DNA of 17,527 nt from Diplocarpon mali (taxonomy: Eukaryota; Ascomycota; Leotiomycetes; Helotiales; Drepanopezizaceae). Below, in pieces: positions 1-17,527 of the stretch. The first letter of the stretch is position 1; each line of letters starts with the position of its first letter. Under the pieces are notes generated by a model. That model did not search any database, was not told the DNA's origin, and saw only the letters and a list, made by a program, of their open reading frames with translations. Location of the stretch: NCBI GenBank assembly GCA_024741835.1, contig JAENRP010000046.1, positions 1 through 17,527 of the forward strand, written 5' to 3'. The position numbers and the translations under genes were made by a program.

Positions 1-141
1 TAATAATTAATTTATATAGTTTATAAATAATAATTATAAAGTGATCTTTAAAGCTAAAATCAAAGATAGACTTTATATTATCTTAAAGGTAATATTATAG
101 AAATTGACTCTTAAGCCGGACTTATAAGTGGATTCCTTTAA

Positions 142-157
142 GGAAAGTGCACTTTCC
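142..157. repeat. Perfect 16-bp palindrome
   Basis: GGAAAGTGCACTTTCC is identical to its reverse complement. It lies in the element A polyprotein frame between the first repeat unit and the solo LTR, where it would encode roughly K-E-S-A-L-S. It may be chance or a binding site; nothing else here supports a function. Confidence 0.6.
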
Positions 158-192
158 ACCCTAATACAATTAAGTAAGAATAGGGAGAATAA

Positions 193-440
193 TGTAGAGA
201 CCTGAGATGGATAGGTCTCGTGACATATATCACATGATCGGCGCAGGCCGGTAGGAGGATAAAAGGGCCACCTTCTATACATAGAGACAGCGCGTGTCGC
301 CATAGTACTAAATATACCCCATACTTAGGACTTATCCCCAACATCTTGTCTAGGAGAGCCCGCTTGTGGTGCTTCCTCCTCTTATTTTTAGGTCTTCCCT
401 TAGGCCTATTCTTATATTATCTCCTCCTCCAAGTTTTATA
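193..440 (+). mobile_element. Solo LTR of the element D family inserted in element A
   Basis: The sequence starts TGTAGAGACCTG and resembles the LTR at 15021 over its length. Shared blocks include TCTCGTGACATA near the start, GAGAGCCCGCTT and AGGCCTATTCT near the end. A TATA-like box (GGATAAAAGGG) lies near 256. The end is placed at about 440 because the next bases repeat the upstream flank (ATAA or AATAA at 188-192 and 440-445), as expected for a target duplication. Taking out the LTR plus one flank copy (252 bp, divisible by three) joins the first repeat unit to the rest of the array in frame. No internal region accompanies it, so it is best read as a solo LTR. The exact right end is uncertain by a few bases. 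Confidence 0.7.
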
Positions 441-826
441 ATAAATAGACTCTTAAGCTAAGATCGCAAGTAAAATTTGCGAAAATGACTCTTAAGCTAG
501 GACTATAGGTAGAATATAATATATTCTTAAAGATGACTCTTAAGCTAGGATTATAAGTGAATTTAATAGAAATGACTTTTAAGCTAAGACTATAAGTGGA
601 TTCTATAGATTTACTAATAATAACTCTTAAGCTAGGATTATAAGTGAAATTCGCAGAAATGACTCTTAAGCTAGGACTGTAAGTGAACTTTACAAATTTG
701 TTAAAAATAACTCTTAAGCTAGGACTATAAGTATATCTTGCTATTTCTAGGAAATCGACTCTTAAGCTAAGATTGCAAGTAGATCTTGCGGTTTTATTAA
801 AAACGACTCTTAAGCCAGGCTTATAA

Positions 827-1921
827 TTAGAAAATGGCAAAACCTTAAACTACTATTACTATTCCTTTCTAGCTGCTAATAATAAAGTATCGACTGATAA
901 TAGGCTACTAAAGCTATTAAAAGCCGAAAGCCTATTAAAGTATTAGCTAATATATAGAAGATTTGCGCATTTAAAGCTAAAGAAATTAAAGGGCCTATAT
1001 AAGGTCTTAACCTTAAAATAGAAGATCTAAGTATTAAAGGATTATCTAATATATCGAATTTGCAAGCTAATAAAACTTCGAAATCAGATGCAAACTAAGC
1101 TTAGTTTATAGAAAGATTTAATACTAGCGCTAATATTTATTAATACCGCTAGACTATTTACAACTTTAATTAAAGGAAATAATTGGTTTTCTTAAATAGT
1201 AGATAACTCTACTTAATAGATATAAACTATTTGTACTAAGACTAAATCTAAGCTTATAGAAAAGCTAGAAACTTAAAAAGTGATAGAGGAACGCTAGACT
1301 TAATTAAAGCTAATAGCTATTAGGTCTAATAATATATTAAAGATTAAGGCAAAGCTTAATAAATAGGTAAAATAAGAAGTTTATTATAAACTAATTATAA
1401 TATATAAAGGTTCCTATTAGAATAGTATTATTAAGCGAAGCATCTACTAAGTAAAGACTAACTATTGCGCTCTATTATAAGATGCTAACCTACTATTAGA
1501 ATTCTAAGACCTTGCGGTTAAGGCAAATGTATACTTATAAAATAGAATAGGTAATAGACTAATAATTAATAGTACCTAAATATCACTATATAAGGCATAT
1601 TTTAAATAAAAACTAAGCTTAGATTATATCTATATCTTTAAAAGCGTCTATTACTCCTATATTAGCCTAAAGTCTTAGCCTGCGAATATAAAAAGTAAGA
1701 AGCTAATAGACTAAGGTAGAGAGTATATATTTATTAAATATATTAAATAGATAATAAAGTAATAGATAGTATATACGCTAGATCTAAAGCAAGTAATTAT
1801 ATCCTTAATAATTAAGTTCGACGAATCTCGAAATAGGAAGGAGCTATCCTTAAAGCTCTATATACTTAAAGATTCGCAAGGTATACCGCTTGATAGTAAT
1901 ACTATTAAGCCAAACTAATAA
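827..1921 (+). pseudogene. Element A integrase region (copia GAG-pre-integrase and rve core)
   Basis: The region would encode zinc-binding and catalytic integrase domains that insert element cDNA into the host chromosome. After the repeat array the frame reads LENGKTLNYYYY and enters a GAG-pre-integrase-like segment around 935-1060 (Y-R-R-F-A-H-L where copia has W-H-R-R-L-G-H). The rve core follows. Its acidic triad appears fully converted: the first Asp codon is AAT at 1142-1144, the second is AAT at 1328-1330 (R-S-N-N for R-S-D-N), and Glu is AAG at 1433-1435 (I-I-K-R-S for I-A-E-R-S). All three are G to A changes. The C-terminal part keeps copia hallmarks: Y-K-A-Y-F, F-K-S-V-Y-Y-S-Y-I and K-F-D-E-S-R-N at about 1580-1840. 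Dozens of stop codons make it inactive. Confidence 0.85.
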
Positions 1922-1989
1922 CTCCTTTCTCTTAGCTTAAGTATATTAAGTACACCTGCTAATTGATAACCTGCTAATCGCTTAAAGGC

Positions 1990-2825
1990 TAAATAGACTA
2001 TTCCTATCGTCTGTAAACTGCTTAAAGTATAAAATAACTTTAATATCATTATCCCTTTAGTTAAAGCACCTATAGTAAAGGATATTCCTAAAATAGGTAT
2101 AAGTAATAATAAGCCTCTACTATTAGAAAGCGGTTCCTTAGATAATAAGCCTATAGAACCTATAGCCGAACCTATGCCTTTAAAGAGGAATAGAGACTTA
2201 GAATCAGAAGATACCTTAGATAAACGCGAGTCTAAGCGTATCTAAGCTATAATAGCATATAAGATTTATAAGCTCGAACTTCAATAGAGCTTTAATAAAG
2301 ATAATATATTCCTAGCCGCTAAAGGGATAATGAAAATCTCTTTTTTAAAGACGTATAATAAAGCTATTAATAATCTAAAGAATAGAGTAGTATAAAATAA
2401 GGCAATCTAAAAGGAGATAAGCTCTCTTACTATAAATGATATATAAATAAAGGAACCGACGCTAAAAGATATAAACCTAGTATTAATAAAGTAGGTCTTT
2501 ATAATTAAAATATATACAAATAAGACTTTAGAATATTATAAGGCAAGGCTTATAGTTAAAGGCTTCTCCTAATAGTATAAAAAAGACTACTTTAATATAT
2601 TTGCACTAATAGTCTATATAAATACCCTTTGCATATTTATAGCAATAGTAGCTGCTAAGAACATTAAATGTAAATAGTATAATATTAAAAATGCATTTAC
2701 TAAAGCGATTATAAAGGAACGGATTTTTCTCTCTTAACCTAATAGTATTCTTATACGCGCTAGCTACTCTCTTTATATACTCTATAATATCTATAGGCTT
2801 AAATAATCAGCCTATAATTAGAACC
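1990..2825 (+). pseudogene. Element A reverse transcriptase, N-terminal half, interrupted by element B
   Basis: This continues the frame from integrase through a charged linker (about 1990-2330) into copia-type RT. Recognisable blocks are A-I-N-N-L-K-N at the RT entry, V-F-I-I-K-I-Y-T-N-K-T-L-E-Y-Y-K-A-R-L-I-V-K-G-F-S at about 2490-2570 (split by no indel), D-Y-F-N-I-F-A, F-I-A-I-V-A-A-K-N, Y-N-I-K-N-A-F-T-K-A and R-L-K-Q-S-A-Y near the right end. The frame stops at 2825 because element B has inserted; the missing half with the polymerase active site resumes at 14771. Stop codons replace Gln and Trp throughout, for example TAG in place of W in the K-W-V-F block. Confidence 0.88.
2821..2825. 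repeat. Target-site duplication of element B, left copy (GAACC)
   Basis: GAACC directly precedes the 5' LTR and recurs at 14771-14775 directly after the 3' LTR. Five bases is the usual duplication length for copia elements, and removing B plus one copy rejoins the element A RT frame. Confidence 0.93.
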
Positions 2826-3066
2826 TGTTGCAGGAATGCCCGTCACATATTTATCACATGATCTGTTATATGACATATCATACATATAATATGTTATATG
2901 ACTTGCCACATGACTTAGTGGCAGCCCTTATTAAATAGCTTATAGTTAGAGAGCTCTTATGAATCAAGACATAAGACACCTAACATCGTCGTTTGCACCT
3001 TATACTTCTTCGTGCCCTCTTCTAGTTTACTATTAAGTTTACTATCAGAAAACCTTTACTGCTATA
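2826..3066 (+). repeat. Element B 5' LTR (241 bp)
   Basis: It begins TGTTGCAGG and ends CTGCTATA, where the 3' copy has CTGCTACA, so the canonical TG...CA ends are visible once RIP is allowed for. The first 100 bp hold a cluster of near-palindromic CACATGA/ATATGAC words, more uniform in a comparison of both LTRs. The 3' partner is exactly the same length. Confidence 0.95.
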
Positions 3067-3084
3067 GGTTATAAGCCCCGTATG
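3067..3084 (+). promoter_or_regulatory. Element B primer-binding site, matching the initiator tRNA-Met anticodon arm
   Basis: GGTTATAAGCCCCGTATG starts at the first base after the LTR. With one RIP-type change reversed (TTATAAG from TTATGAG), its reverse complement contains GGGGCTCATAACC, close to the anticodon stem and loop of eukaryotic initiator tRNA-Met (GGGCUCAUAACCC, CAU anticodon). Priming from an internally cleaved half tRNA is established for Drosophila copia and yeast Ty5. The tRNA match is from memory, not computed against this genome. Confidence 0.7.
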
Positions 3085-3395
3085 CCTATAAATAGCATTC
3101 GACAAATTCCATCGATCAAAGTCTCCCTTACAAACGAAAAGGCTGATCGATATTTTAAGTTTTACTTAACCAACGACGTATAATAAGCGTTATCTTAATA
3201 ATAAAACAGTAGCTACTCCCCTTCTAAAGCGCTATGCAATAATCTAAGCTTACGTAAGATTTGTTACTATAGCTAAATCATCAGGACTAATAGCTGAGAT
3301 TACCAGCTTAATTGCTAAAAGTACTCTACTGCTTAAATCACCTATTTTTAAAGGGACTAATATATAGTACCTTAAACTCGAATTTAATAGTTTAT

Positions 3396-3420
3396 CTCCT
3401 CCTCCTCCTCCTTCTCCTCC
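3396..3420 (+). repeat. CTC/CTT trinucleotide microsatellite in element B gag
   Basis: A 25-bp pyrimidine run of CTC units with one CTT interruption encodes a short proline-rich run (S-P-P-P-P-P-S-P-P) in the gag frame. On the other strand it is a GGAGGA purine run that leaves a short open frame without protein support. Confidence 0.85.
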
Positions 3421-4522
3421 TTTTAATAACTCTATATACAAATATATAAATAAGATATCGTTGTTATTTTCAGCTGCCCTTAGCCTCCCTAAGTCTTAAA
3501 AGCTTAAAGGCGTAGAGGACTATAACTAGTAAAGGAATAAGGTTTTAAACCTTGCAAAGTCAAACGCTTTAACTATATATCTTTATACAAAAGTTAAAAT
3601 ATATGCTCTACCTAAGGTTAACTTATAGGACCGTTCTATTATAAATAAGGAAAGGGACAATTGGGTTAGATAGGAAGCTAAGGAATCTTAAATAAAGCTT
3701 ACTATTACACTTAATTGCAAACTAGGCCTATTAGCTTATATAAAAGGCGACAAATCTGCCTTAGATATATAGGAAGCTTTTTAAAAATAGTACAAAGGAT
3801 CTGGAATAGTGCTTGAATATAACGCTATATAGACCTATATTACTATTAAATATAATAACTTTAATTCACTTAAAGCTTACGTCGTCGCTTTCAGGCTTTC
3901 GATCACTAAATTGGAAGCTCTTGACTCTGCCCCTCCCTCTTACTAGCACCCTATCATATTTATTGCTAGCTGTTTTAATAGATGGCCCATTTAGGTAGAT
4001 CGATAATACTCTAACCTTCGCTTAGCTATAGCAGCTAGACGAAAATCAAAGATCACGCTTAAAGCTCTTATTAAAGATATCACTAATAAAGCTTAAGCCT
4101 TATAAAGTTCAAAGATAAACGGAACCGTCTTATATAGTAATAAATCGGCTAGTAAGCCGCATTCCTTTAATTATAAGAAGTCAGATAATAAGGGAGGTTT
4201 CAAAGACTTAAAGAAGAGCACCTTTAGGAATACTACCAACTCCCTTAACTCCCCTAACTCCCCCTATCCTTATTGCAAGCAATTAGAGCCATACTATAAG
4301 GCAGAAGATTGCTTTACAATTAATAAATCGAAAAGAGAGGCCTAGGAGAAGGACTTAAGGAAGAAGTACATATTCTATTACTTTAAAGGTAAGGATAACA
4401 AGTCCTTGCTATTATTACTAAAAGGTAAGAAGCCTTTTAAGAAGATTTAAAAGGAAGATAAAGAGTCAGATAATGACCTCTTTAGGCATACTATACTATT
4501 ATTAACCCTAGGGCCAATTCTC

Positions 4523-4599
4523 ACTCGCAAGCCAGGCCTAGGAGTCAATTCTAACTCCTCCCTAGGGCCAATTTCCATTCGCAGGCCAGGCCTAGGAGT
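4523..4599 (-). repeat. Two inverted copies of the 23-bp palindromic repeat in element B gag-pol
   Basis: Copies at 4523-4545 and 4577-4599 begin ACTCGCAAGCC (second: ATTCGCAGGCC) and end CCTAGGAGT, the reverse complement orientation of the direct copies at 5987-6102. Their spacing is 54 bp, a multiple of three. In the sense frame of the polyprotein they encode T-R-K-P-G-L-G-V-N and I-R-R-P-G-L-G-V-S, a peptide very similar to that from the opposite orientation. They are almost free of RIP, unlike the array in element A. Confidence 0.88.
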
Positions 4600-4620
4600 T
4601 AGTTCTTCTACCTACTTCTT

Positions 4621-5980
4621 ATTAAAATTGAGGAATTATTAGCTATATAATATAAGTACTAGTAAGCATATCTCTAATAATCTCTCTAAGTTCACTTCTT
4701 ATACTACTTAAGATAATCTATCCTCTTTAAGTATAGTTAATAGATCTATTTAACCTCTTAGCGTTAGTATTTATAAAGTTAACGCACTTAAATCTAATAG
4801 AAAGGTATATATTCTTAAGTTAATTAATACTCTCTATATACCTTAATCTCCTATCTGCCTATACTTAAGTAGCAAACTTAATAAAATCAAAGGCTTCTAT
4901 TGAAATAGCAAGCTATTCCTATCTAATAAGAAGGAAATTTGCACTATCGATAACAATATATATATTAATAAGAAATAGCCTTTTACTAACTCCTCTAGTT
5001 ATATAAGTGGATATGCTCTCCTAGCTGCTATTGAGAATAGACCTCTTAATATTAAGCTCTAGTACTATCGATTAGACCACGCTAGCCTACAAACGGTTAA
5101 AAAGACCTAATCTGCTATTATTAATATATAAATTAAAGAAACAAAATCAAGAAAGATGCGAATTTGCGCTCCTTGCGAGAAAGGCAGACCTTTTTAATAC
5201 ATTAATAAACGTTTAGCTTACCCTTGACTTATAAAAGCATTTAATAAGCTATATATCGATATAGTTTATTTAAAGCCAACTAGCCTTAATAGTTATAAAT
5301 ATACTTCTATCTTCACTTGCGCAGCTATAATAGCTAAATAAGGATAGACCTATATAAATAAATCTAACGCCTTTAAAGTAAATAAGAAGATGATTATCCT
5401 CTTATAAACTTAGTATAATTGCATAATCAAGCGGTAGAGAACTAATAAAGGCAAGGAGTACTCTCTTATATAGATGCGAATACTTATAGAAAACCTTAGT
5501 ATAATTTTAAAGGAATCTACTCTATATATATTAGAATAAGATAGTAGATTAGAACGATTAATTTATATACTAATAGAAATGTTGCAAATAGTTATAATTG
5601 ATTAAAATATCCCCTTCTTTCTCTAGCCTTACCTTCTTCTTTTAATAATATATATTACTAATCTTATTGCCTCTAATATTCTAAGTGGCAAGACTCTATA
5701 TAAGGTCTTTTAGGATAATATTAAGCCTAATAAGCCTTATACTCCTTCTATTAAGCATCTCTAAGTACTAGGCTATTGCGTTTATATACTAATCGAGAAA
5801 GAAAGGCGAACTTAAAGTAATAAACTCGCTCTAAGAGCAGAGGTAGGTACTCTTATCGGATTTGATAGCAAAAGTATCTATCAGATCTATATGCTATTGC
5901 AAATAGGTGAAAAGATTATTTAATTATCTTATATTCGATTTAATAAAGATAGCCTAATTATAAAGCCGCAATTAAGGGGT
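4621..5980 (+). pseudogene. Element B protease-linker and integrase region (copia)
   Basis: This is a frame-2 continuation of the polyprotein. I could not recognise the protease active site in 4621-5040. GAG-pre-integrase lies at about 5045-5175 (Q-Y-Y-R-L-D-H-A-S-L-Q-T-V, copia W-H-x-R-L-G-H-A, then C-A-P-C-E-K-G of the HHCC finger). The rve core follows: first Asp is kept (GAT 5258-5260 in Y-I-D-I-V), the second is Asn (AAT 5444-5446 in T-N-K-G-K-E-Y), and Glu is kept (GAA 5552-5554 in R-L-E-R-L). The spacing of second Asp site to Glu is D-X35-E, as expected. The integrase C-terminal block (L-G-Y-C-V-Y-I, then G-T-L-I-G-F-D-S) is at about 5770-5870. One catalytic residue lost plus many stops means it is inactive. 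Confidence 0.85.
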
Positions 5981-5986
5981 GATTTG

Positions 5987-6102
5987 ACTCCTGGTCTAGG
6001 ACTGCGAGTTAATTCTCACTCTTACGATTTTACTCCTAGGCCGGGACCGCGAGTTAATATTGACTCTTATAATAATTTCACTCCTAGGCCAGGACCGGGA
6101 GT
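5987..6102 (+). repeat. Three direct copies of the 23-bp palindromic repeat in the element B polyprotein
   Basis: Units start at 5987, 6032 and 6080 (spacings 45 and 48 bp) and stay in the pol frame. They encode T-P-G-L-G-L-R-V-N, T-P-R-P-G-P-R-V-N and T-P-R-P-G-P-G-V-N, in a linker between integrase and RT. These are the best preserved copies and define the intact sequence: left half ACTCCTAGGCC, centre G/A-GGACC, right end GCGAGT. Flanks are also shared: GATTT before each and TTAATT or TCAATT after. Confidence 0.92.
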
Positions 6103-6636
6103 CAATTCTGATTTAAGAGAAGCTAATAAAGCTGAGCTTCTAACTTTAAGAAAGAGAGGAAGACCTCCTGATTTAAAGAATAAGGCTTACCCTTAGCCTT
6201 TTAAGAAGAGAGCTACTCGCTTAACTTATACTCTTAGATTCAAAGCTAACAACTTTAATAATAAGGAAGCCTATTTAGGCGCCTTCTATATGGCCTTACT
6301 CGACTCTCTATACCCAAATGACCCGAAAATAGTCGAATAAGTCCTCTCTTGCGCCGACGCCGATAAATAGCGATCTACGATTAACTTTAAGTATAATTCC
6401 CTCGCTTATAAGAATATATAAGTAGTAGTAAAACGCTTAAAACTCTTTAAAGACGATAGAGTACTTAGATCGAGGCTTGTCTTTAAAATAAAAAGAGACT
6501 AAAATAGGAAAATCTCCTAATAGAAGGTCAGATTCGTTATATAAGGCTATATGCAATAATAAGGTTGAGATTACAATTAGATATTTGCTAGAGTATGCAA
6601 ATCTGCGGTTTAGAAGATCGCAATTGCGCTTATAGT
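6103..6636 (+). pseudogene. Element B reverse transcriptase, N-terminal part, interrupted by element C
   Basis: After the repeat linker, a basic stretch (K-R-G-R-P-P-D-L-K) leads into copia RT. Recognisable blocks are L-V-F-K-I-K-R-D at about 6478-6501, V-R-F-V-I-Q-G-Y-M-Q at about 6529-6560 and I-F-A-R-V-C-K-S-A-V-stop-K-I-A-I-A-L near the end. The frame is cut at 6636 by element C and resumes in the same frame after 12992. The TAG in K-S-A-V-stop-K fits a Trp in copia relatives. Confidence 0.87.
6632..6636. repeat. Target-site duplication of element C, left copy (ATAGT)
   Basis: ATAGT directly precedes the 5' LTR and recurs at 12992-12996 immediately after the 3' LTR. With one copy removed, the element B codons join as A-L-I-V-L-Y-D-F-E, a normal copia RT sequence. 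Confidence 0.95.
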
Positions 6637-6928
6637 TGTGACGGATTGTTACTATGTGTAGGTTGTACCCCGGTTTGTACCCGGTTCGGCTACGGCTTGG
6701 CGCAATCTCGGTGTAGGTTACGAACTGGGTTACCCCTGGTTAGCATCCGGTTCGGCTTCCCCTAAGCGGGTGACCCTCTTTTCTCTATATATATATTCTA
6801 TACCCTTCCACTCCTTTAGGGCTTAATAGTTGTTGATTTTAAGTTATTACTAAGATGTTCTATTAGCATTGCTATGTGATTTGTATATGTATCGGTGCTG
6901 AGCAGAGGTTATACTCCTAGTTATTATA
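6637..6928 (+). repeat. Element C 5' LTR (292 bp)
   Basis: It runs from TGTGACGGATTG to CCTAGTTATTATA, the RIP-altered form of CCCAGTCGTCACA in the 3' LTR. A TATATATATAT run near 6787 is a plausible core promoter, followed by CCACTCCTTTAGGG. The sequence just inside (6929 on) shows no primer-binding site I can recognise. Confidence 0.95.
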
Positions 6929-7066
6929 TTATTAATAACTCTTTCGCTTCGCTAGAGATAGTATTATAATATCTATTTATATTATTCCTAGTAGTCGACC
7001 GAAACCCTAACGAGTACGATAATATACTAGAAGACCTATACTAAGCTCTTGCTATAAGCTTAAAGA
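6929..7066 (+). other. Element C leader between 5' LTR and gag
   Basis: This 138-bp stretch should hold the primer-binding site and packaging signal. The first bases (TTATTAATAACTCTTTCGC) do not match a tRNA 3' end that I recognise, even after allowing RIP. A short hairpin-like run CTTTCGCTTCGCTAGAG is present. Nothing else is evident. Confidence 0.5.
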
Positions 7067-8553
7067 ATGGTTCCCCTTATCACTTGGTCTTCAAAGACCC
7101 CTTGCTCTCCCTCCTAGGGAGGTGCCAGTATTACCCCTGGTACCTTTCCTACTAACTTCCTACCGGCTGATGACGATAGCCCTAAAGTCATTATATCATA
7201 AGCCAAACTAGATTCTCTATAGGTACGACTTATATCTATATTAGAAGAATGTGATAGGTATAACTATAAGCTGAATTCTATACACTAATAGTTGATCGAT
7301 TGAGAAAGAGATTTGGATGACCTTTAAAGCGCCTCTAAAGGCATCCTAAGATCAATTGAGAAAACACCTGCACTTAAACTCCGAAACACCTCTAGTTTAC
7401 CTACGCGTCCTTAACGCTCTATAGACTTCGACTTACCTCCTTCTATTTCCTCTACTGCGTATAGTAAGCGACGCGACAATTAAGACGATCCTTCTTCTGC
7501 TTCCCCTAATTGATATACTACCAGTTCGCCTTTAGCTTAGCAGCTAAACCTCCCTTGTATCTATAATATACCGAACCTTACTTAGAAACTGTCCGATAGC
7601 TGTAATTACCGCGCTAAACACTAGAAGGCCTGCGTACTTAACAATTTAGAGCTTTACCACCTTTACTTCTGTAGGGAATGGGCCTGGCTTAACTACGTTT
7701 TAGATTAGACTAAGGGTATAGCTAGGGACTGGCTGACCCCTTAGGTACTTAATAGGGACGCTTGAATTACCGCTAAAACCTTAGTGAGTCAACTTGCTAA
7801 GTTCTTAGCTGACCTGGCAGAACGCGAAGAAGCCGAGATCGAGTTTACTACCCTCTGTATAGAGGCCAATAAGTCTTTTTAGGAATTCTACCTTGAGTTC
7901 TCTCGACTAGCTGCTATAGCAGAGATCGACGATAGCAGTCGACTTTGTAGCGCCCTTAGGGAGAAAATCCTGAAACGCCTCTAAACCTCCCTTATACAAA
8001 AGTGGTATAAGACTAGGACGTTGGACAAGTGGGTTACTGCTATCTAACAAGAAGACGCCGGATAGCGCGCCAAGAGGACGCTATACAGTCAGATATAATA
8101 CAGAGACAAATTAAGTACTAAGGCCAAGCCTAATCTTGGCAAGCCTGCCTAACGAGGAGATAATAATAAATCAAATCCCTTGCTAAGAAACTTTTTCGAA
8201 ATGTATCTGAACCGACCTTGGCATAGCACTCCTGCCCTTGGCTTCGCTAAGTCCGGAACTCCCTCTTTTCCTCCGCGCCGGACCGATACCCCTAGCGCTC
8301 TCCCTCTAACTGATCGAAAAAATCAGTTTGACAAACGGCCGAAATCCCCCTCTATTACTCCTAGGTATTATAGCTCTTGCGTCAATAAGCTAGAGTATAA
8401 TGGCCAAGGATAGAGTAGCGATGAAGAGGAGGACCCTAAGGCCGAATAAGACAATAGTGGCGCTCTCCTTTCCCTTCTGACTCTTAGGGGAAACGCCCCC
8501 GCTTAAGTAAAGCCTCCTTCTTAGGCGCACTTTATAATATGCGATACCTTGAT
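7067..8553 (+). pseudogene. Element C gag (Ty3/gypsy)
   Basis: Capsid/nucleocapsid precursor. The chosen start is the ATG at 7067 (M-V-P-L-I-T-W), the first Met in the coding frame (frame 2). An N-terminal region rich in Ser/Pro is followed by a probable coiled segment (L-D-S-L-stop-V-R-L-I-S-I-L-E-E-C-D at about 7209-7260). A gag core lies at about 7600-8080 with the W-x-x-W and A-R-D-W-L-T-P motif, then F-L-A-D-L-A-E-R-E-E-A-E and F-Q-E-F-Y-L-E-F-S type helices. The C-terminal part is basic and proline-rich (P-P-R-R-T-D-T-P-S) with a degenerate Cys cluster (Y-Y-S-S-C-V-N-K) where a zinc knuckle is expected near 8370. It ends with D-E-E-E-D-P-K. Stops sit at Gln/Trp sites. It overlaps pol, which is in another frame. 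Confidence 0.82.
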
Positions 8554-11500
8554 TTGAGAAACCTCCTTAGTAGCGATTCGATAATGAAATGGATCCTACT
8601 TTCAAAGAATGGTATTTCTTATAAGGTATCGGCATTAATTGATATAGGCGCTAATAGGTATGCTTTGATTAATTCGGCGTTACTTAAATCTTTATCTTCT
8701 TTCCTTAAACTATTGATTCACATACTCCTTATACCCTTCCCAGTTAAGGGATATAACGGTTCTTGGGGTAGTACTATCACTTATTATATACTACTTAATC
8801 TGTATATCAATTAGCGAATTTAATCTTTTACTCCCTTTCTTATTACTAACCTCGGCAACTATGGAGTGATTTTAGGAAGAGTATGGCTTAAGGAGTATAA
8901 AGTTTCTATTAATTATGCTTCTCGCAAGCTGACCTAGCCCGATTCCTATTCCCCTACTGTCTCTTTCGCAAAGAATATCGAAATTACTAATACTAAATGG
9001 TAAAACTTGGATTGATACTACTAGCGAAATGCAACTCGATGCGATACGGTACTAGAACGGTCCCTTTCTGACTATAAAGCTCGACGCTAGGAAACCCTCT
9101 CCTAACTCCCTCCTAAATCACCTCCTATTCTGATTAAACACTCTTTTACCGATTCCACCCCGACTCTACTCTGAGTCGAGGGTAATACCTTTTTCAAGGA
9201 CCACTCCTGCAATATGTTAATTATAAAGCGAGAGCTTAACGCGACTGAGCCTAACTCGGCTCCCTTTCCTGTTTCGACCCTGAAACGCACTTACAATTAG
9301 ATAGCAAAGTGCAAAATTCCCCTTTCTTCTTTGAATATATATGCAATTTCAGCTTATACTTTTCGTATAATAGCTAGGAATTAGCAAGGCGTAAAGCTCT
9401 TTAGCACCTCGTTTTATAAAATTGATTGATTGATTTGAGATAACTAAGAATATTAGGCCTAATAATGCGAAACCGATTCCCTCTTAAACTGATACTATAA
9501 TAGAGAAGTTTCAGTGGCTGTTCTAACTGCCTCCTTTAAACTAATTGAAAAACCAATTCCAGCCGCTTATAAAGAGTACCGCTATATATTCTCGAAAGCC
9601 GCTTCTAATGCGTTGCCGCCCTATTGACCTTATGATTATAAAATCGAGCTTACAGCCGAAGGTGCTTAGAAGGCCCTCTGATACTCCCCCTTGTATAAGA
9701 TGTCTATACCTGAACTGAAAATAGTAAAGGCATACTTTATTAATAACTTTAATAAAGGATTTATCAAGGCCTCCTTCGCCCTTTACGCTGCGCTAGTACT
9801 ATTTATAAAAAAGGCCGATAGTTCCCTACGATTCTATATTGACTACTGTATGCTTAATAACCTCACTTGTAAAGATTGATACCCCTTACCCCTAATCGAC
9901 GAGACCCTAGCTCGATTAGCCAGCGCTTAGATTTTTATAAAGCTCGATATACGGTAGGCTTTCTATCGAATCCGAATGGACCCCGAATCTGAAGAGCTTA
10001 CCACTTTTAGAACTTGGTATAGCGCGTACAAGTGCAAGGTGCTCCCTTTTGGCCTTACTAATGGCCCTGCTACCTATTAAAGGTATATGAATAATATCCT
10101 TTTCGATTACCTTAATGATTTTTATATAGCCTACTTAGACGATATCCTTATTTACTCTATTAATCGACTCAACTACGAATCGCATATGAAATAGGTTCTT
10201 TAGCGATTATTGGATGTAGGACTGTAGGCCGACCTAAAGAAGTGTGAGTTTAATATTATAGAGATTAAGTACCTTGGCTTTATAATTACCACTGAAGGCG
10301 TTTAGGTTGACCCTAATAAGGTAGCAGTAGTAGAGAATTGGACCTACCCCTTTATTGTAAAGGGTATTTAGTCATTCCTTGGTTTTTGCAACTTTTATTA
10401 TTGTTTTATTTGAGACTATGGTCTTATTGCCGCCTCTTTAGTATACCTTACTAAGAATAACGTTCCTTTCCGATTCACCCCCGAATGCGAGCAGAGCTTC
10501 CTATAGCTGCGAGAAGCTCTTACGCATGCCCTAATCCTCTAGCACTATAGGTAAGACCTCCCCTATATACTGGAAACCGATGCCTCTAATGGTATAGTCG
10601 CCTCTGTATTATCGCAGCAATACAGGTCCGAATGGCTCCCGGTTGCCTACTATAGTAAAACCATAGCACTAGCCGAGCTGAACTACGCTATATATAATAA
10701 GGAGATGCTGGCTATTATTCGATCATTTGGCTATTTTAGAGCCGAGCTCGCAGGAGCACCCTACTAAATCGTAATGTATACGGACTATAAAGCACTCGAG
10801 TACTTTATAACTATAAAAAACCTCAGTTCTTGATAGGCCCGCTAGGCCGAGCTTCTCTCCGAATACGACTTTATAATTACCTACCGACCTGGCTCTAAAA
10901 ACCCTCTTGCCAACGCCCTGACTTACTGCGTCGATGAGTTGGAGGATTAGAATATGATAAAATGTAATAACCGCCTTACGATATTATTGCGCTAAGATCA
11001 GATTGACCCCTGAATCCTCTTTAAACAGCTTTGTAAATAGACTATAGCAGAGAACTTAGTCTCTATCGAAGAGGTTTCGGCCTTCTCCCTTGCTTTCTGT
11101 GTTATCGACTAAGTACTAGCCGCTAATCGATAACACAGGCCTTACTAGGTCTATCGCTAGGCAGCCCTCTGGAATAGGTCCGATATAGCCCCGACTAAGG
11201 CTAACCCTTAGACGATGGAAGGAGATTTGCTTCTCTATTAAGGTAAACTAGTGGTACTAGATATGGATTACCTCTGTACGTTACTTATATAGGAGGTCCA
11301 TGATTAAATTGCTACTGCGCATTTAAGCACGCGCAAAACCTACTAGCTTCTCTCCTTATAGTACCACTGGCCGAATCTACGCCGATATATCTCCTAGTAC
11401 TATAAGAACTGCTATACCTATAGACGAAGCAAAGTCCCTTGTAATAAGAAACCTAGTCTTCTTTAACCCCTCCTAGTACTAAGCCGACCTTGGGAGCATA

Positions 11501-12699
11501 TAACTATAGATTATATAAGTTTTAATAAAGATAAGCATAGCTATAATAACGTTCTTATGATTATCGATCGGTTTAGTAAGCAGGCAATCTTAATACCCTG
11601 CCGAAAGACTACCGATTTACGTCAGTTAGCCCAATTCTATATATACTATATATATTGCTACTTTGGTCCCTCTTTGATAATCACCTTGGACCAGGGCCCT
11701 TAATTCATCTTGAGCTTTTGGAAAGCTTTTACCTCCGTTTTAAGTACGAAACTGACCCTTGGTTTGGCCTACTACCTTTAAACCGACAGCCAAATCGAAA
11801 ACTATAATTAGTACCTTATACAACGCCTCCGCCCCTTTGTTAGCTACTATTAAGATGATTGGAGCGAATTCTTGCCTATAATGGATTTCGCCTAGCTAAC
11901 TCTCCCCTATGACTCCCTTAGTGGCTTATCGCCATTTGAAGTAGTGCATAGGTACGCTCCGCGTACTAATTAGGACTAGAAGCTTAATATACCTAATTCG
12001 GAGTCCCCTTCTTAGAAACTTAATCGATAAGACGCCCTTAAGTACTCCGCAAGACATTATGGAGCTTAGACCCTTGCTAAATCTCATATCCTTAAGGCCT
12101 AGGAACGCATGCGAAACGCCATTAATACCTCTTGCCGCTTAGCTACTTTTGAAGTCGGCGATTAGGTATACTTAGATATGCGTCCCTACCCTATAGATAG
12201 GCCTTTTAAAAAGCTTAGCTTTTTTAAAGCTGGCCTGTTTAAGATAGTAGAGAAAGTGTTTGGTTTATACTGACTGAAGCTACCTGACTTTATAAAGGTA
12301 TATAATATCTTCTACCTAAGTCGCCTTTAAAGGGACCCTAGTACCTCTCTAGATGGTCAAGTGAATGAACCCCCTTCTGCTATCAATATTATAGGAGAAT
12401 AAGAATATAAAGTAAAGACCCTGCTTACTATATGGAAGCAAGCTGGTACGCTTACATACCGCGCCTTATAGGTTGGCCGCGATATTGATTTAAAATAGTA
12501 CCTAGCCTCTAATTTTATATATGCGCCTTTCAAGCTTTGCGAATTTCATTAGGAAAATCTAAACCTCCTAGGCCTGCCCGCAAGGCTTCCTAATTGGATA
12601 TAGGCTTACACCGATGGTATAGATGATTATAATAAGATAGGTGACGATAAACCTATAGTTGGACGCTTAAGGACGAGCTTTTTTCGAGAGGGGGGGTGA
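8539..12699 (+). pseudogene. Element C pol: protease, RT, RNase H, integrase, chromodomain-like end
   Basis: Gypsy polyprotein in frame 1, about 1387 codons. Protease has L-I-D-I-G-A-N at 8635-8655 (D-T-G with Thr changed to Ile). RT spans about 9690-10330: P-F-G-L-T-N-G-P-A-T-Y and an intact Y-L-D-D-I-L at 10132-10149. RNase H follows (L-E-T-D-A-S-N, Asp at 10579). Integrase has His at 11299 and 11320, then N-C-Y-T-Y (second Cys now Tyr). The core keeps Asp 11509, Asp 11689 and Glu 11797 with D-X35-E spacing. The C-terminus at about 12394-12552 resembles a chromodomain (E-Y-K-V-K, Y-R-A, V-G-R-D-I-D, S-N-F-I-Y-A-P). TGA at 12697-12699 ends it against the 3' LTR. Tens of in-frame TAG/TAA/TGA make it a pseudogene. 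The start is uncertain because gag-pol fusion likely uses a frameshift. Confidence 0.93.
12686..12699 (+). promoter_or_regulatory. Element C polypurine tract
   Basis: GAGAGGGGGGGTGA abuts the 3' LTR, the position from which plus-strand DNA synthesis is primed in LTR elements. It overlaps the last codons and TGA stop of pol. Confidence 0.88.
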
Positions 12700-12991
12700 T
12701 ATGACGGATTGTCACTATATATAGGTTGTACCCTGGTTTGTACCCGGTTTAGCTATAGCTTAGCGCAATCTCAGTGTAGGTTACAAACCGGGTTACCCCC
12801 AGTTGGCATCCGGTTCGGCTCCCCTTAAGCAAGTGATCCTCTTTTCTCTATATATATATTTTATGCCCTTCCACTCCTTTAGGGCTTAGTAGTTGTTGAT
12901 TCTAAGTTATTACTAAGACGTTCTATTAGCATTGCTATATGATTCGTATACGTATCAGTGCCGAGCAGAGGTTATACTCCCAGTCGTCACA
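12700..12991 (+). repeat. Element C 3' LTR (292 bp)
   Basis: It begins TATGACGGATTG (TG changed to TA) and ends CAGTCGTCACA. It is the same length as the 5' LTR with no indels; the two differ only by transitions. It is followed by ATAGT. Confidence 0.95.
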
Positions 12992-14275
12992 ATAGTGCTA
13001 TACGACTTCGAGCTAGATCAGTTCGATATTAAGATAGCTTTCCTTAATTTAAAAGCTAACTCTAATATCTATATCAAGTTACTTCTTAGATATACTTAAG
13101 ATAAGGTTATTCTATTATCTTAAGACTACTATCTTAAGCTTCTTAAGGCCTTATATAGCTTAAAGTAATCTTTATAACTATAGTAAGAAAAGCTACGGTC
13201 TGAGCTATAAAAGCTCGATTTTCAACCTCTTAATACTAATAATTGCATATATATCAACCGCGCCTCTCGGATTCTCATTGTCACTTATATTAACGACTTC
13301 CTTATAGTAGCAAAGAAGGGTAATATATATAATAAGTTTAAAAGAGATCTTTGCAATCTCTTCGAAATCATAAGTAGCAAATTAGCTAACTACTTCTTAA
13401 GAGTACGTATAGTTAGAGATTAATAAAATAGAATAATCTCACTTTATTAAAACGCCTATATTAATAAGGTTCTTAAACGTTTTTATATAACTAATTACAA
13501 AAGCGTACTAACGCCTTTTGCTAATAGCTATAAAGTTCATATAATCAAATTTAAAGGCTAAGCCACTCTATAGGAAGTAAAGCTATACTAGGAGATCTGT
13601 GGTTCTCTATAGTACCTTGCGCACTATACGCGTTAGGATATACTATACTACTGCTCTATTCTTAGCAAATTCCTTACTAACCCTTTGCTATAATATATAG
13701 CAGCTTTAAAACGAGTTTTACAGTACTTGCAGGGAACGCAATTCTATTATACTACCTTCGAAAGCAAAACAACTGACCTAGAGCTTTAGAAATTGTATAG
13801 CTACTGCGATTCTAACTAGGCAAGTGATAGAGGAAGTAGAGCCTCCTATTCTAGGGCTATCTTCTTCCTTAATAATAGCGTAATTAGCGCCTCCTTTAAG
13901 CGATAGACTATTATCGCTCTCTTATCTATAGAAGTAGAGTATATCACTATATGCAAATTCGCATAAGAGGCCTCTTAGATACGCTAGGTACTTAAGGAAA
14001 TAGGCTACGCTAGCGATAACGCTACTAAAGTCGAGATGATTTATAATAATTAAAGAGCCCTTTATCTTACTAAAAACCTTAAATATTATTAGAGAATAAA
14101 GCATATCAATATCAAGTTCTATTATATTCGGCAAGAACTTTGGAAAGGCCATTTAGACCTTTAGTATACGAATACCAAAGACAACGCCGCCGACGGCCTT
14201 ATTAAGAGCTTAAATAGCTCTAACTACGCCGCCTTTATCAAATTGTTAAATATAAAGGTTCTACACCTCGATTAA
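12992..14275 (+). pseudogene. Element B reverse transcriptase C-terminal part and RNase H
   Basis: This resumes the element B frame (frame 2) directly after element C, including the right ATAGT copy. RT blocks are F-E-L-D-Q-F-D-I-K-I-A-F-L-N, L-Y-S-L-K-Q-S and the active site Y-I-N-D at 13286-13297, where copia has Y-V-D-D, so one catalytic Asp is lost by G to A. RNase H-like blocks follow: G-S-L-Q-Y-L, R-V-L-Q-Y-L-Q-G-T, S-Y-C-D-S-N, L-S-I-E-V-E-Y (copia L-S-S-T-E-A-E-Y) and K-H-I-N-I-K-F-Y-Y-I-R near 14097-14130. The frame ends at TAA 14273-14275. Stops replace Gln/Trp throughout. Confidence 0.9.
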
Positions 14276-14346
14276 GGGGTGATTTTTTTTACACCTCTAT
14301 TATAGGGTGATTTTTTTTTACACTTCCATTAAGAGGTGATTTTTTT
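14264..14346 (+). repeat. Three tandem hairpin-plus-T-tract units at the end of element B
   Basis: Units begin at 14264, 14292 and 14321 (period 28-29 bp). Each has CACCTC or a variant, ATTAAG or a variant, GGGGTGA or a variant, then seven to nine T. The CACCTC and GGGGTG arms can pair around a short loop. The first unit contains the pol stop. The last unit runs straight into a 23-bp palindromic repeat. A role in RNA 3' end formation or as a Pol III-type T-tract is only a guess. Confidence 0.75.
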
Positions 14347-14369
14347 ACTCCTGGGCCAGGCCCGCGAGT
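14347..14369 (+). repeat. Direct 23-bp palindromic repeat in element B 3' untranslated region
   Basis: ACTCCTGGGCC begins the copy and CGCGAGT ends it, followed by TGATTTTGACT. This copy lies after the pol stop, so the repeat is not confined to coding sequence. Its flanks match those of the copy at 5987. Confidence 0.9.
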
Positions 14370-14529
14370 TGATTTTGACTTACTAAAGGGTGGATTTCGC
14401 GCTAGCGAACTCTACTCTATTTCCTATATCTGCAGGTTGATTTTTTATACGAAACTATAGACTATAACAAAAGTTATAATATCATATATATTACTAGCGA
14501 ATACCTTTAAAGGTCTCCCTAGAGGGGTG
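14370..14529 (+). other. Element B 3' untranslated region and polypurine tract
   Basis: This AT-rich sequence has no coding signal. AGAGGGGTG at 14521-14529 abuts the 3' LTR and is the likely polypurine tract. A second GGTTGATTTTTTA run occurs near 14433, resembling the T-tract units upstream. Confidence 0.7.
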
Positions 14530-14770
14530 TGTTGCAAAAATGCCCGTCATATGTTTATTATATGATCTATCATATAATATATCATATATATAATATATCA
14601 TATGACTTGCCATATGACTTAGTGGCAGCCCTTATTAAATAGCTCGTAGTTAAAGAGCTCTTATAAATCAAGACATAAGACACCTAATATCGTCGTTTGC
14701 ACCTCATACTTCTTCGTGCCCTCTTCTAGTTTACTATCAAGTTCACTATCAGAGAACCTTCACTGCTACA
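14530..14770 (+). repeat. Element B 3' LTR (241 bp)
   Basis: TGTTGCAAAAATG to CACTGCTACA, the same length as the 5' LTR and differing from it only by transitions. It is followed by GAACC at 14771-14775, the right copy of the target duplication. Confidence 0.95.
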
Positions 14771-15020
14771 GAACCTCTTATATAGCTTTACTTTAATAGA
14801 AATAGGATTCGTTTAAAGCCTAGCTAACCCTTATCTATTTACCTATATTAAGCGTAGAATTAAGTTGCTATTATATATTAATAATATTACTATAGCTGCG
14901 AAAACAACTACTTAATTAGATTAGTTCTTTATAACTATTTAGAAACATTTTAATACTAAGGATCTAAAGGGAATTTATAAGATCCTTAGCATTTATATTA
15001 TAAGAAACCGCTCTACTTAA
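14771..15020 (+). pseudogene. Element A reverse transcriptase, C-terminal part, truncated by element D
   Basis: This continues the RT cut at 2825. Taken with the GAACC junction the frame is continuous: E-I-G-F-V, S-L-A-N-P-Y-L-F-T-Y, then Y-I-N-N-I at 14874-14888, where both catalytic Asp of Y-V-D-D are Asn (both G to A). A-K-T-T-T, F-N-T-K-D-L-K-G-I-Y-K-I-L-S-I follow, ending with I-I-R-N-R-S-T at the LTR of element D. RNase H should lie beyond D, outside the window. A 10-bp inverted repeat (CTAAGGATCT at 14956-14965, AGATCCTTAG at 14980-14989) lies inside. Confidence 0.9.
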
Positions 15021-15271
15021 TGTAGAGACCTGGAAGTGGAGGATCTCGTGACATAGGTCATATAGTCAGATAAGGACCAAGAAAGAGGTATATATAGGAC
15101 TACTGTTATACTTAAAGATAGCGCGCAATGCCAACTACCTATTCTACCCTTAACAAGTGATTTATCCTAGTTCTGTCTTCGGAGAGCCCGCTTATAGTAC
15201 TTCCTCCCTCTTTATCTTTAGTCTTTACGTAGGCCTATTCTCAGGTGTTATTCCTGCTTCCTCTTATATTA
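15021..15271 (+). repeat. Element D 5' LTR (about 250 bp)
   Basis: It starts TGTAGAGACCTGG. It aligns with the solo LTR at 193-440 through TCTCGTGACATA, AGCGCG, GAGAGCCCGCTT and AGGCCTATTCT. A TATA-like run (GGTATATATAGG) is near 15087. The right end is placed at about 15268-15271 by that alignment; no partner LTR is in the window to fix it, and no clear primer-binding site follows. Confidence 0.75.
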
Positions 15272-15445
15272 GTGACCTACGCAGGGACGATTCCTTTGAG
15301 ATTTCGTCTTTATACGACTTCTCCTCTTGATTCTCTTAGTTCGCAGACAAGAGATTAACCCTTTGAAAAACCCTCTTAAGATAATAATCACTTAGTTATT
15401 TAAAACTGTCAGTTGTCATTCCTCTATTATCGACCTTGCAATCAC
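15272..15445 (+). other. Element D leader
   Basis: No convincing coding or primer-binding signal. It contains the first copy of a diverged 54-bp tandem duplication that begins at 15386. Confidence 0.5.
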
Positions 15446-15493
15446 TCAGTTATTTAGAACTGTCGATTGCCACTCTCTACTATCAACAGCCTC
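15386..15493 (+). repeat. Diverged 54-bp tandem duplication in element D leader
   Basis: AATCACTTAGTTATTTA at 15386 recurs as AATCACTCAGTTATTTA at 15440, both followed by an A/G-ACTGTC...TTG block. The second halves have diverged with small indels. Confidence 0.75.
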
Positions 15494-15880
15494 AGATTTT
15501 CCTATTTCAGCCCCTATTCCGACTCTCCTACCTCTGATCCGACAAAGCTTGAATTATCAGCTTATCGGTACGATTGTCGGATTCCTAGCCTTTTTGATAC
15601 AAAGAAGTTTAATTAGCTACAATAGCTACTTTAAACAATAGCAGTTTTGAGTATTTATACAATACTAAATGAAAGCTCCAATCGGGAGTGTCTCCTTAGC
15701 TTCCTTAAAAAGCTAAATCGGATACTTCAGCCGCCTCCACTCGATAGAACTCTGAAAACTGCCCTAGAATCGTCTCTAGAGACCCCTTTATTCTAAGGAC
15801 CAATAGGAATTGTCCTAGAAGCTAAGATGAATCTTTCTTAGAAACTTTATTTTAGAAATTAGTCTTTAACTTAATAAACC
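15446..15880 (+). pseudogene. Coding-like segment of element D upstream of gag, unknown function
   Basis: Frame 2 reads like protein with stops only at sites expected for Gln/Trp: Y-F-S-P-Y-S-D-S-P-T-S-D-P-T-K-L-E, then R-I-P-S-L-F-D-T-K-K-F-N, L-S-I-Y-T-I-L-N-E-S-S-N-R-E, F-L-K-K-L-N-R-I-L-Q-P-P-P-L-D-R and A-K-M-N-L-S. I do not recognise a family. The following gag-like sequence is in another frame (frame 1). It may be the N-terminal part of the same gag after an indel, or a separate small ORF. Another frame is also fairly open in 15447-15640, so the choice is not certain. Confidence 0.45.
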
Positions 15881-15983
15881 TTTTCTTACTGCTAGTAATT
15901 GCAGTACCTTTATTTATTGCTTCGTACCCATTAAAGAAGTCTTAGCAAAGCATAAATAAACTTTCTACAGAAGCCGGATTTTC

Positions 15984-16006
15984 ACTCCTAGGCTAGGCCC
16001 GCGAGT
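15984..16006 (+). repeat. Direct 23-bp palindromic repeat upstream of element D gag
   Basis: ACTCCTAGGCT starts and CGCGAGT ends the copy, with GGATTTTC before it. In the gag frame it would read S-L-L-G-stop-A-R-E, so it is out of phase with the T-P-R-P peptide, or upstream of the true start. Confidence 0.9.
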
Positions 16007-16011
16007 AGGAA

Positions 16012-17290
16012 TCTAAAAATGCAATTTTGTATAACTCAAGTTCTTTACCTTCCCCTTCTACACCTTCTCCTTCGACACCTTCCCCTTTAACAACTGCACC
16101 TGCTTTCTCAATATCGACACTTGAAAATACTAAAAATATCAATTTTAAACCTCCTTCCGACCCTTTGCCCGAATCTTTTCAAGCTCGCCCTAGTCACTCT
16201 AAGATTGACTCGGATTCTAAAAACTCCTTAGAATACCTTAGGCCCTGTATTCGACCTAACTCCCCTCCTATCGAAACGAATAAAGCGATAATAGCCGCCT
16301 TCAAAGCCATTACTAATCATTTTCCCCTCCCTAGTTCCCTTAGCGCTTCTCATTTCACTAGAGCTAATATTACTAATTTCCTTAAATAATACAAGGAGAC
16401 TTATTATAATTTCGGCATTAGATATAATAAAATAATCAATCGACTTCCCTGCTACTACAACCAAACTAGCAAAGATATTATCAAATCTCTACCTAAGTGG
16501 AAGCTTCGCAAGTCCTAGGAACTACTTATTAAGGCTCTCAAAGCTGAATTTCAGGAATTTGATAGACAGCAGATTTGCGACACTCTAGCCTTTCTAAAGG
16601 AGTTTGTTCTTATTACTCGCACTCCTAAGGAACTTAAAAACTACTATTGGACCTTCACTCGAGTGTCGAATACCTTGATCAACTAGAAAATACTTAGCGA
16701 AGTTAAAAGAGGCCGCCTTTTCTTACTCAGATTACCCACTAGCCTTTATAATAAGATTATTAAGAATTTCAGGATCGATAAATAAGACCCTATAACCTTC
16801 GCCTTATTTAAGGAGTTCTCAGCCTTTGCTTTAAAATCAGATCTTAGTAAGAGAACTATTAATACTATAGAATAGGAAAAAGCCCTTACTCCCTCTTATA
16901 CTAAAGACCTCAAGAGCTTAGTTCAAGAACACTTAAAGGCTTTAAAAGTTACAAAGGAGGCAAAGAGAAATCCAGTAATAATTCCCTTCACTCGCAGTCC
17001 TAGCCTAGGAGTAAAATCTGCCTTAAAAATCAAGGAACTCGAAGCCCAGTTTTCTAAACTTTACATCTAACGTTTGGAAACCTTAATCGAAGGCCTTCTT
17101 TAGAAAACTCATCACGCCCCTTAGTTTGGAAATCGACAGGCTCTAGAAGGCAAAAACTAGCACGCGAACTCTAAATACCTAAATCCAGCTTCCCTTAGGT
17201 TAAATAAACGAGTTGCCACCCTAGAAAGGCTTAATAAACGTCTGTATTAAAGGAATTCCTAAATTGTTAGTCGAATTTTATATAAAGCTT
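16012..17290 (+). pseudogene. Element D gag-like protein
   Basis: Frame 1 shows a low-complexity Ser/Pro/Thr N-terminus (S-P-S-T-P-S-P-S-T-P at 16048-16077), then a gag-like helical core from about 16280: A-I-I-A-A-F-K-A-I-T-N, Y-K-E-T-Y-Y-N-F-G-I-R-Y, R-L-P-C-Y, W-K-L-R-K, A-L-K-A-E-F-Q-E-F-D, Y-Y-W-T-F-T-R-V-S-N and L-R-L-P-T-S-L-Y-N-K-I-I. This pattern (short helical segments, R-L-P, 'E-F' before a polar run) fits fungal retrotransposon capsids. No ATG opens the frame, so the start is unknown. Stops such as TAA 16387-16389 and TAG in S-stop-E-L-L sit at Gln/Trp sites. An inverted 23-bp repeat is in frame at 16990. After 17230 (L-N-K-R-L-Y) stops become dense and coding is doubtful. Confidence 0.7.
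16990..17012 (-). repeat. Inverted 23-bp palindromic repeat, in frame in element D gag
   Basis: ACTCGCAGTCC starts and CCTAGGAGT ends the copy. In the gag frame it encodes T-R-S-P-S-L-G-V-K, the same peptide type as the inverted copies in element B gag (T-R-K-P-G-L-G-V-N). Confidence 0.9.
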
Positions 17291-17414
17291 GAATTTTCTT
17301 TAGCAAGGACGCCTCTTAAGTTGGTTAAAATATATATGCTTAGGATTACTTGAAATTGTCTTTGAATTTTCCTTGAAATTGCGATTTAATAGCTTTAATA
17401 ACTTCGAGCTTTTA

Positions 17415-17437
17415 ACTCGCAGTTTTAAACTAGGAGT
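17415..17437 (-). repeat. Inverted 23-bp palindromic repeat near window end
   Basis: ACTCGCAG starts and CTAGGAGT ends the copy; the centre (TTTTAAA) is altered compared with other copies, mainly by C to T or G to A changes. It lies beyond the clear gag coding signal. Confidence 0.7.
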
Positions 17438-17527
17438 CGCATCACTAAAGGAGGAAAAAGGAGTTTTTATTATTTTATGCGTTTACTACCGCACCTCCCC
17501 CCTTCCCTCTCTCCCTTTATATATTTC
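17438..17527 (+). other. End of window: purine-rich then pyrimidine-rich run
   Basis: GGAGGAAAAAGGAG at about 17450-17463 is followed by a C/T-rich run (CCTCCCCCCTTCCCTCTC) at about 17493-17511. No coding signal is evident; it belongs to element D internal sequence or an unrecognised further insertion. Confidence 0.4.

Follow-up and report, generated by a model that had tools for sequence, protein, structure and literature searches.

A 23-bp near-palindrome repeated in several transposon families of Diplocarpon mali: a possible shared recognition site

Introduction

Why does one short imperfect palindrome recur in several different retrotransposons of the same genome? The question is raised by a 17,527-nucleotide stretch of the helotialean ascomycete Diplocarpon mali (NCBI GenBank assembly GCA_024741835.1, contig JAENRP010000046.1, positions 1 to 17,527, forward strand), hereafter the window. 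The window consists of nested, decayed long terminal repeat (LTR) retrotransposons, in which Copia-A holds Copia-B, which in turn holds a Gypsy-like element. An earlier note, made from the letters of the window alone, had taken the 23-bp repeat (the 23-mer, or motif) for a very small mobile or gene-converted unit. In this study, the 23-mer is tentatively read as a near dyad-symmetric DNA recognition site, which was acquired long ago by several transposon families and has been kept by them.

Occurrence of the 23-mer in the window and the genome

All 19 copies listed in the earlier note are present: ten in element A, Copia-A (starting at 107, 449, 488, 536, 575, 623, 662, 710, 758 and 806), six in element B, Copia-B (4523, 4577, 5987, 6032, 6080 and 14347), and three in LTR element D, named D1 to D3 (15984, 16990 and 17415). 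When one mismatch is allowed, the pattern ACTCNYRRKYYNRRMYYRNRAGT hits exactly these 19 places of the window with 36 strand matches, versus a mean of 0.01 and a maximum of 2 in 200 shuffles. The strict form ACTC-N15-GAGT has eight matches (shuffle mean 0.14). The copies thus share a 23-bp design, but the outer ACTC...GAGT said to be common to them is exact in only 8 of the 19. Copies in A have been eroded by transitions (ACTCTTAAGC...ATAAGT). Both orientations, and coding as well as non-coding positions, were seen as described.

A degenerate 23-mer, ACTCNNNGNNNNGNNNNNNGAGT, was searched across the 49.4-Mb genome (676 contigs), as the earlier note had suggested, and gave 1,593 forward and 1,561 reverse matches, whereas the reversed control pattern gave 29 and 35. 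The forward and reverse sets overlap because many copies match both strands. Hosts and flanks were analyzed in about 305 kb of genome loci (numbered with L) chosen for the motif, which hold 291 copies in 25 distinct flank contexts. A looser rule raised these numbers to 314 copies and 30 contexts, some of them by chance. Some loci overlap, and a recount that included additional loci gave 301 copies, 288 of them with a distinct context sequence. A prokaryotic or phage origin was considered and rejected: ACTCNYRGGCCNGGNCYRNGAGT was found in 37 stretches of about 257 Gb of prokaryote contigs, with one site each, and twice in IMG/VR, both GC-rich and chance-like. The same pattern has 85 matches in 304 kb of this genome, in loci selected for the motif.

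Sequence and symmetry of the unit

The consensus of the near-palindrome is ACTC-S-YRG-K-CC-N-GG-M-CYR-S-GAGT. About six further symmetric bases are conserved on each side (RAWTYN before, NRAWTY after), giving a symmetric unit of about 35 bp; in the 25 contexts, R at -6, Y at -2 and R at +2 each occur 24 times. Contexts were tabulated only for copies starting with ACT and ending with AGT, which makes invariance at these six positions uninformative; the flank columns were unselected. The spreading unit of 45-48 bp proposed earlier did not hold up. The lengths of 45 and 48 bp correspond to array periods, next to others of 39, 54 and 61-66 bp, and such a unit is ruled out by array linkers of 16, 22, 25 or 31 bp that are by eye dissimilar between families. 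Successive copies less than 70 bp apart are spaced by 39, 45, 48 or 54 bp in 96 of 105 cases.

The two halves stand at a strict distance. Half-sites separated by any 0 to 30 bases, N{0,30}, were found at 525 genome sites (control 0), with a gap of exactly one base at all 50 sites listed, and the undecayed form with CGG-N7-CCG was found at 58 sites (control 0). Among the 50 listed sites, which are not independent, 45 consist of a C-half and a G-half, five of two G-halves and none of two C-halves. Two half-sites of the form ACTC[C/G]CGG[G/T]CC, as they would have read before decay, may face each other over one free base and create the CGG-N7-CCG core.

Host families and positions of the motif

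The motif extends beyond one retrotransposon lineage, as the earlier note had held, and was found in Copia-A, Copia-B, the Gypsy-like element of locus L068, LTR element D and the L070 element, at unrelated positions. Domains were placed by eye unless Pfam is named. Copies mostly lie in frame between protein domains, and also in Copia 3' non-coding DNA. In Copia-B there are two sites in the Gag tail (Gag copies 1 and 2), two to four in the linker between integrase and reverse transcriptase (RT), plus a single site in 3' non-coding DNA. The related Copia-B copy L129 matches the Pfam families gag_pre-integrs and SH3_retrovirus, and its motif array follows directly behind the integrase SH3 domain. 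Copia-A carries the array and three copies seemingly behind pol by eye (L069 1837-1964, L072 4182-4309). The L068 element has RT-type RNase H domains (Pfam) and a Gypsy order by eye, with one motif pair upstream of RT (721, 766) and another behind RNase H (2668, 2713). The L070 element possesses two tandem paralogous open reading frames (ORFs) with 36% identity over 254 residues (E 3e-37) and six motif copies; one copy pair is matched by the alignment of the paralogs and the remaining two pairs by eye. This element has no Pfam match, and a 576-aa piece of it found no database relative. The region L070 1500-9000 is high-copy, with 227 first-look candidates in the genome search.

The integrase/RT linker was compared in ten sampled Copia copies upstream of the RVT_2 domain. 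The motif occurs only in L129, of the Copia-B type, and is absent from this linker in the other nine (L122-L128, L130, L131), which show about five linker types by eye; one of the nine, L125, is a member of the Copia-A lineage, where the motif occurs at other places. The RVT_2 search of the genome had given 1,082 first-look candidates, of which 150 were scored; by eye, about six linker types are represented among the ten sampled. The motif peptide is missing from three database relatives of Copia-B. Of these, two JGI proteins can be aligned both before and after the linker, and a protein from the powdery mildew Podosphaera aphanis, the sole named database relative, aligns only upstream of it. 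A 121-aa piece with four motif peptides had no match among 49 candidates (proteins 0.55-1.75 times that length).

Fixation of the copies

Mobility of the motif, as suggested earlier, predicts empty sites, and none was found at any isolated copy in the families examined. In each of the DNA searches for empty sites the best 40 of 175-258 candidates were scored, so the searches are not exhaustive. At D1, with gaps of 4-34 bases allowed, the site is filled in 38 of 38 matches, and in ten further copies that are partly the same as the 38. The Copia-B 3' site has the filled length (55-58 bases) in all 29 genome matches. No match shortened by about 23 bases was seen among the best 40 each for the Gypsy-like linker, L070:6604 and L006. 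The motif is present in 14 of 14 relatives of L070 at 74-81% identity, some with decayed ends, and in the six distant relatives of L001 that were read, of 40 listed. A comparison among the fetched loci gave motif-sized gaps at 40 copies, every one with a neighbour copy within 110 bases. Variation was seen only in the copy number of arrays. An earlier junction scan had returned 126 copies for which a partner had fewer than 16 bases inserted; its output, where examined, consisted of array differences and misregistered alignments, and the stricter comparison is preferred. Clean empty sites were recovered from the same data for the Copia-B insertion and for a solo LTR, with target-site duplications GAACC and AATAA, respectively, and the empty-site method therefore works. 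Recent mobility is rejected on these grounds.

An older event may be imagined, in which a tiny palindrome, mobile or template-switched, spread between families long ago and has since become immobile, its conservation being due to recency or homogenization rather than function. We regard this as rather unlikely. It would account for a single 23-mer, mostly of one polarity, in about 25 flank contexts of unrelated hosts and in both orientations, and for the integrase/RT linkers that are without the motif in nine of ten Copia copies and in the three database relatives. A ATTAAGGGGTGATTT-like stretch precedes both the Copia-B linker array (about 5972-5986) and the 3' copy (about 14330-14345), so that the motif and its preceding bases are common to two places of one element; this suggests short-patch copying inside the element (repeat family D11). 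Besides the filled sites and the working positive controls, two observations tell against such a spread. No consistent target-site duplication was recognized by eye in the 25 contexts, and at D1, D2, Gag copy 1 and L070:6604 the only differences in half-type (positions 5 and 19) among copies are transitions, giving no sign of exchange between sites. If the 23-mer were self-spreading after all, its small size would be unusual among the dispersed repeats of nuclear genomes.

Conservation of the motif before decay

The window displays the pattern of repeat-induced C-to-T mutation (RIP), with TA/AT of 1.40-1.46 and (CA+TG)/(AC+GT) of 0.55-0.78, versus 1.06 and 1.09 in the gene-like control locus L007. 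Since RIP yields transitions, transversions report on the time before decay. Transversions per site, with the central base excluded, are lower in the motif than in its flanks at seven of seven contexts; an eighth had too few copies. The values are 0 versus 0.018 at D1, 0 versus 0.010 at D2, 0 versus 0.081 at L070:6604, 0.006 versus 0.009 at Gag copy 1, and 0.006 versus 0.057 at Gag copy 2. Only at Gag copy 1 and L070 are transition rates lower in the motif than in the adjoining sequence; elsewhere they are not, which indicates that RIP strikes the motif like its surroundings.

In a second test, relatives were recruited with the motif masked and columns containing a transversion were counted. 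Such columns number 0/22 in the motif versus 24/125 in the flanks at D1 (p 0.014), 0/22 versus 26/130 at L070:6604 (p 0.011), and 0/22 versus 38/300 at D2 (p 0.057). The pool of D1, D2, L070:6604 and Gag copy 1, sites chosen after the result was seen, gives p 6e-5. At third codon positions of D2, Gag copy 1 and L070, transversions are found in 0/18 motif columns versus 34/181 flank columns (p 0.029).

These counts bear on the possibility that the peptide T-[P/R]-R-P-G-[L/P]-[R/G]-V was selected, as a flexible linker or polyprotein processing site, with the DNA palindrome as a by-product. Stops are fewest in phase 0, where ACT forms a codon, in 20 of the 25 contexts, often by small margins and with contexts of one element not independent, and the six copies of the L070 element all share this phase. 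The flanks of L070 and D2 display a third-position excess of transversions (0.130 versus 0.054 and 0.047; 0.032 versus 0.012 and 0.015), supporting coding in phase 0 there; no such excess was seen in the flanks of D1, D3 and Gag copy 2. The regular array spacings also suit a peptide repeat, as does the position of the copies, inter-domain in Copia-B and following RNase H in L068. Against it stand the Copia-B 3' non-coding copy, which is kept too, the third positions of the motif without transversion, D1, which is not in phase 0, and the symmetric one-base spacing, meaningless for a peptide. Selection on the peptide is thus improbable as the source of the palindrome.

Base pairing of the palindrome

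Base pairing of the 23-mer is not preserved. In 24 copies tabulated by hand, positions 5 and 19 are C-C in 15, and positions 9 and 15 are mismatched in seven, so the halves look as if they are read as sequence. Three whole-copy 35-mers were folded against shuffles, and the one at 14341-14375 folds above most of them (z -1.66; 12 of 200 shuffles at least as good), whereas the other two show no advantage over shuffled sequence (z 0.17 and 1.45); a probe from L129 covered only part of a copy and is not counted here. A hairpin of RNA or DNA acting as a dimerization, packaging or cruciform signal, which the near-palindromic sequence and the 14341-14375 probe would suit, is accordingly very improbable, and a hairpin element of the Rickettsia type, with which the earlier note had compared the repeat in style, is disfavored with it. 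A merely inherited linker or minisatellite of one retrotransposon lineage would explain the same place within each family examined and the varying array copy number, but is refuted and deserves hardly any weight, given Copia-A, Copia-B, Gypsy-like, D and L070 hosts with unrelated positions and flanks.

A possible shared recognition site

Fixation, strict spacing, symmetry without pairing and apparent third-position conservation together make a protein-recognition site the simplest account of the 23-mer, and it is on this combination that our tentative reading of a kept, near dyad-symmetric site is based. A dimeric protein, encoded by the host or by an element, would probably read it. Two Copia lineages, the Gypsy-like element, LTR element D and the two-ORF L070 element would each have obtained the 23-mer before the family amplified; tandem copies would then have grown and shrunk locally, and most copies would now be decaying by C-to-T change. 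Template switching during reverse transcription is one possible route between families. The 23-mer may also benefit the elements that carry it.

Several points weigh against a recognition site. The 23-mer is polar, with a C-half and a G-half at 45 of the 50 listed sites, and is not a true homodimer palindrome. The binding protein is a prediction from sequence; no motif copy was shown within any LTR; and the motif lies largely inside coding regions, where regulatory boxes are not mainly expected. The transversion gap is less clear-cut at D3 (0.033 versus 0.060) and at Copia-B 5987 (0.016 versus 0.041), and Gag copy 1 has no significant excess of conservation in the column test (1/22 versus 4/108, p 0.80). 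Gag copy 2 (17/22 versus 16/85) was dropped from the pool because shifted array copies had been recruited out of register with other flank lengths; with it included, p is 0.76 for all columns and 0.38 for third positions. Other flank lengths also give high motif values at the Copia-A array and at Copia-B 6080, which we attribute to misregister. Finally, columns and copies of one family are not independent.

A bolder form of the same reading, in which the 23-mer is one common 'address', exchanged between families and kept in coding regions, and a single host or element factor activates, silences or targets all of them, is an unlikely conjecture. Transposons of different superfamilies would then share a regulatory code that is written into their genes in frame. 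If the shared, protected site is real, the transposon families of one genome would be linked through a common factor, and the passage of short signals between unrelated transposons would become a testable question.

Comparison with known systems

Repeated motif (RM) boxes (Bousios et al. 2010, PMC2829016) are described from 13 plant Sireviruses, which are Copia retrotransposons, as dyad-symmetric motifs with a CGG-CCG core, present in at least eight copies per element and conserved amid divergent flanks. They are 10-20 bp long, differ between elements and are located mainly in LTRs and upstream of ENV, and their function is proposed and untested (PMC2829016). The 23-mer resembles RM boxes in being multi-copy (10 and 6 copies in two Copia hosts), dyad-symmetric with a CGG-CCG core, and conserved amid divergent flanks. 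In location, some copies lie between pol and the 3' LTR, as do some RM boxes (Copia-B; Copia-A by eye), with none shown in an LTR. It differs from them in that one 23-mer is found across Copia, Gypsy-like and L070 elements, largely in coding DNA, and in a fungus. The RM box may be regarded as the nearest described counterpart found. No fungal counterpart was recognized among the papers listed from one open-access library, judged by titles and abstract openings.

Rickettsia palindromic elements are hairpin-folding units of about 100-150 bp in host genes. As in these elements, short palindromes occur at many unrelated loci, in frame and in non-coding DNA and in both orientations; this part of the earlier comparison stands, with 25 contexts from 291 copies. 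The 23-mer differs in its size (23-35 bp), in that pairing is not kept, in that the identified hosts are transposons, and in that no empty sites were found. The GC clusters of yeast mitochondria are reportedly short palindromic repeats for which mobility has been proposed. Palindromic microsatellites of Fusarium are described as mitochondrial, short, proposed to be mobile and optional between close relatives (PMC7218506). Unlike the mitochondrial palindromes so described, copies of the 23-mer lie in transposon repeats and are not optional where examined.

Zn2Cys6 (Gal4-type) factors bind sites of the form CGG-Nx-CCG. The 23-mer is comparable in its inverted CGG halves, fixed spacing and fungal origin, whereas its conserved ACTC/GAGT ends and C/G polarity go further. 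The phrase CGG-N7-CCG was found in none of the matches listed in open-access literature. Minisatellites occur inside retrotransposon ORFs, and the tandem in-frame arrays of varying copy number are similar to these; isolated single copies, and one unit in unrelated elements, are not.

Organization of the window

All features described here are on the plus strand unless stated. Copia-A (1..2825; lineage of L125) is interrupted by Copia-B. Its first copy, A1 (107..129), lies upstream of an inserted solo LTR (193..439), which is related to the LTR-like start of D and sits inside the array; the target-site duplication is at 188-192 and 440-444. The empty site of this LTR is found in L069, where A1 is contiguous with the array. 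Copies A2 to A10 (449..828) follow with spacings of 39 and 48 bp, and on the minus strand a frame over the array is open from 436 to 840 (134 aa).

Copia-B (2826..14770) has LTRs at about 2826-3067 and 14530-14770, target-site duplications at 2821-2825 and 14771-14775, and its empty site in L072. The first motif copy (4523..4545) is coding, in the frame T-R-K-P-G-L-G-V, behind a Gag zinc-knuckle-like stretch by eye, and the second Gag-tail copy (4577..4599) follows 54 bp further. Three copies in the integrase/RT linker (5987, 6032 and 6080; 5987..6102) are in frame, e.g. T-P-R-P-G-P-R-V. The copy between pol and the 3' LTR (14347..14369) is non-coding by eye. The inner Gypsy-like element (6639..12984, by eye; LTRs at about 6639-6921 and 12702-12984) has no motif copy, and its five look-alikes are poor and lack the ACTC and GAGT ends. 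Element D (15019..17527) begins with an LTR-like repeat followed by a Gag-like ORF (by eye; no Pfam match), and is readable to the window end only, the record reading N beyond. It contains D1 (15984..16006), D2 (16990..17012), in frame in the Gag-like ORF as T-R-S-P-S-L-G-V, and D3 (17415..17437).

Other short repeats accompany the motif in Copia elements. A second repeat of about 28-29 bp (TACACCTCYATTAAGGGGTGATTTTTTT) has three units before the Copia-B 3' copy (14262-14346), and the end of this repeat is found ahead of the integrase/RT array as well (5959-5989). Some Copia-B copies (L051, L129 and others) carry an extra short stretch, CTATACCTTAAGGAAAATTCCTCTT..., upstream of this array, an optional insert of another kind. 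In L126 the integrase/RT linker contains repeated E-D-N-plus-stop units, and the linker therefore seems generally tolerant of repeat expansion.

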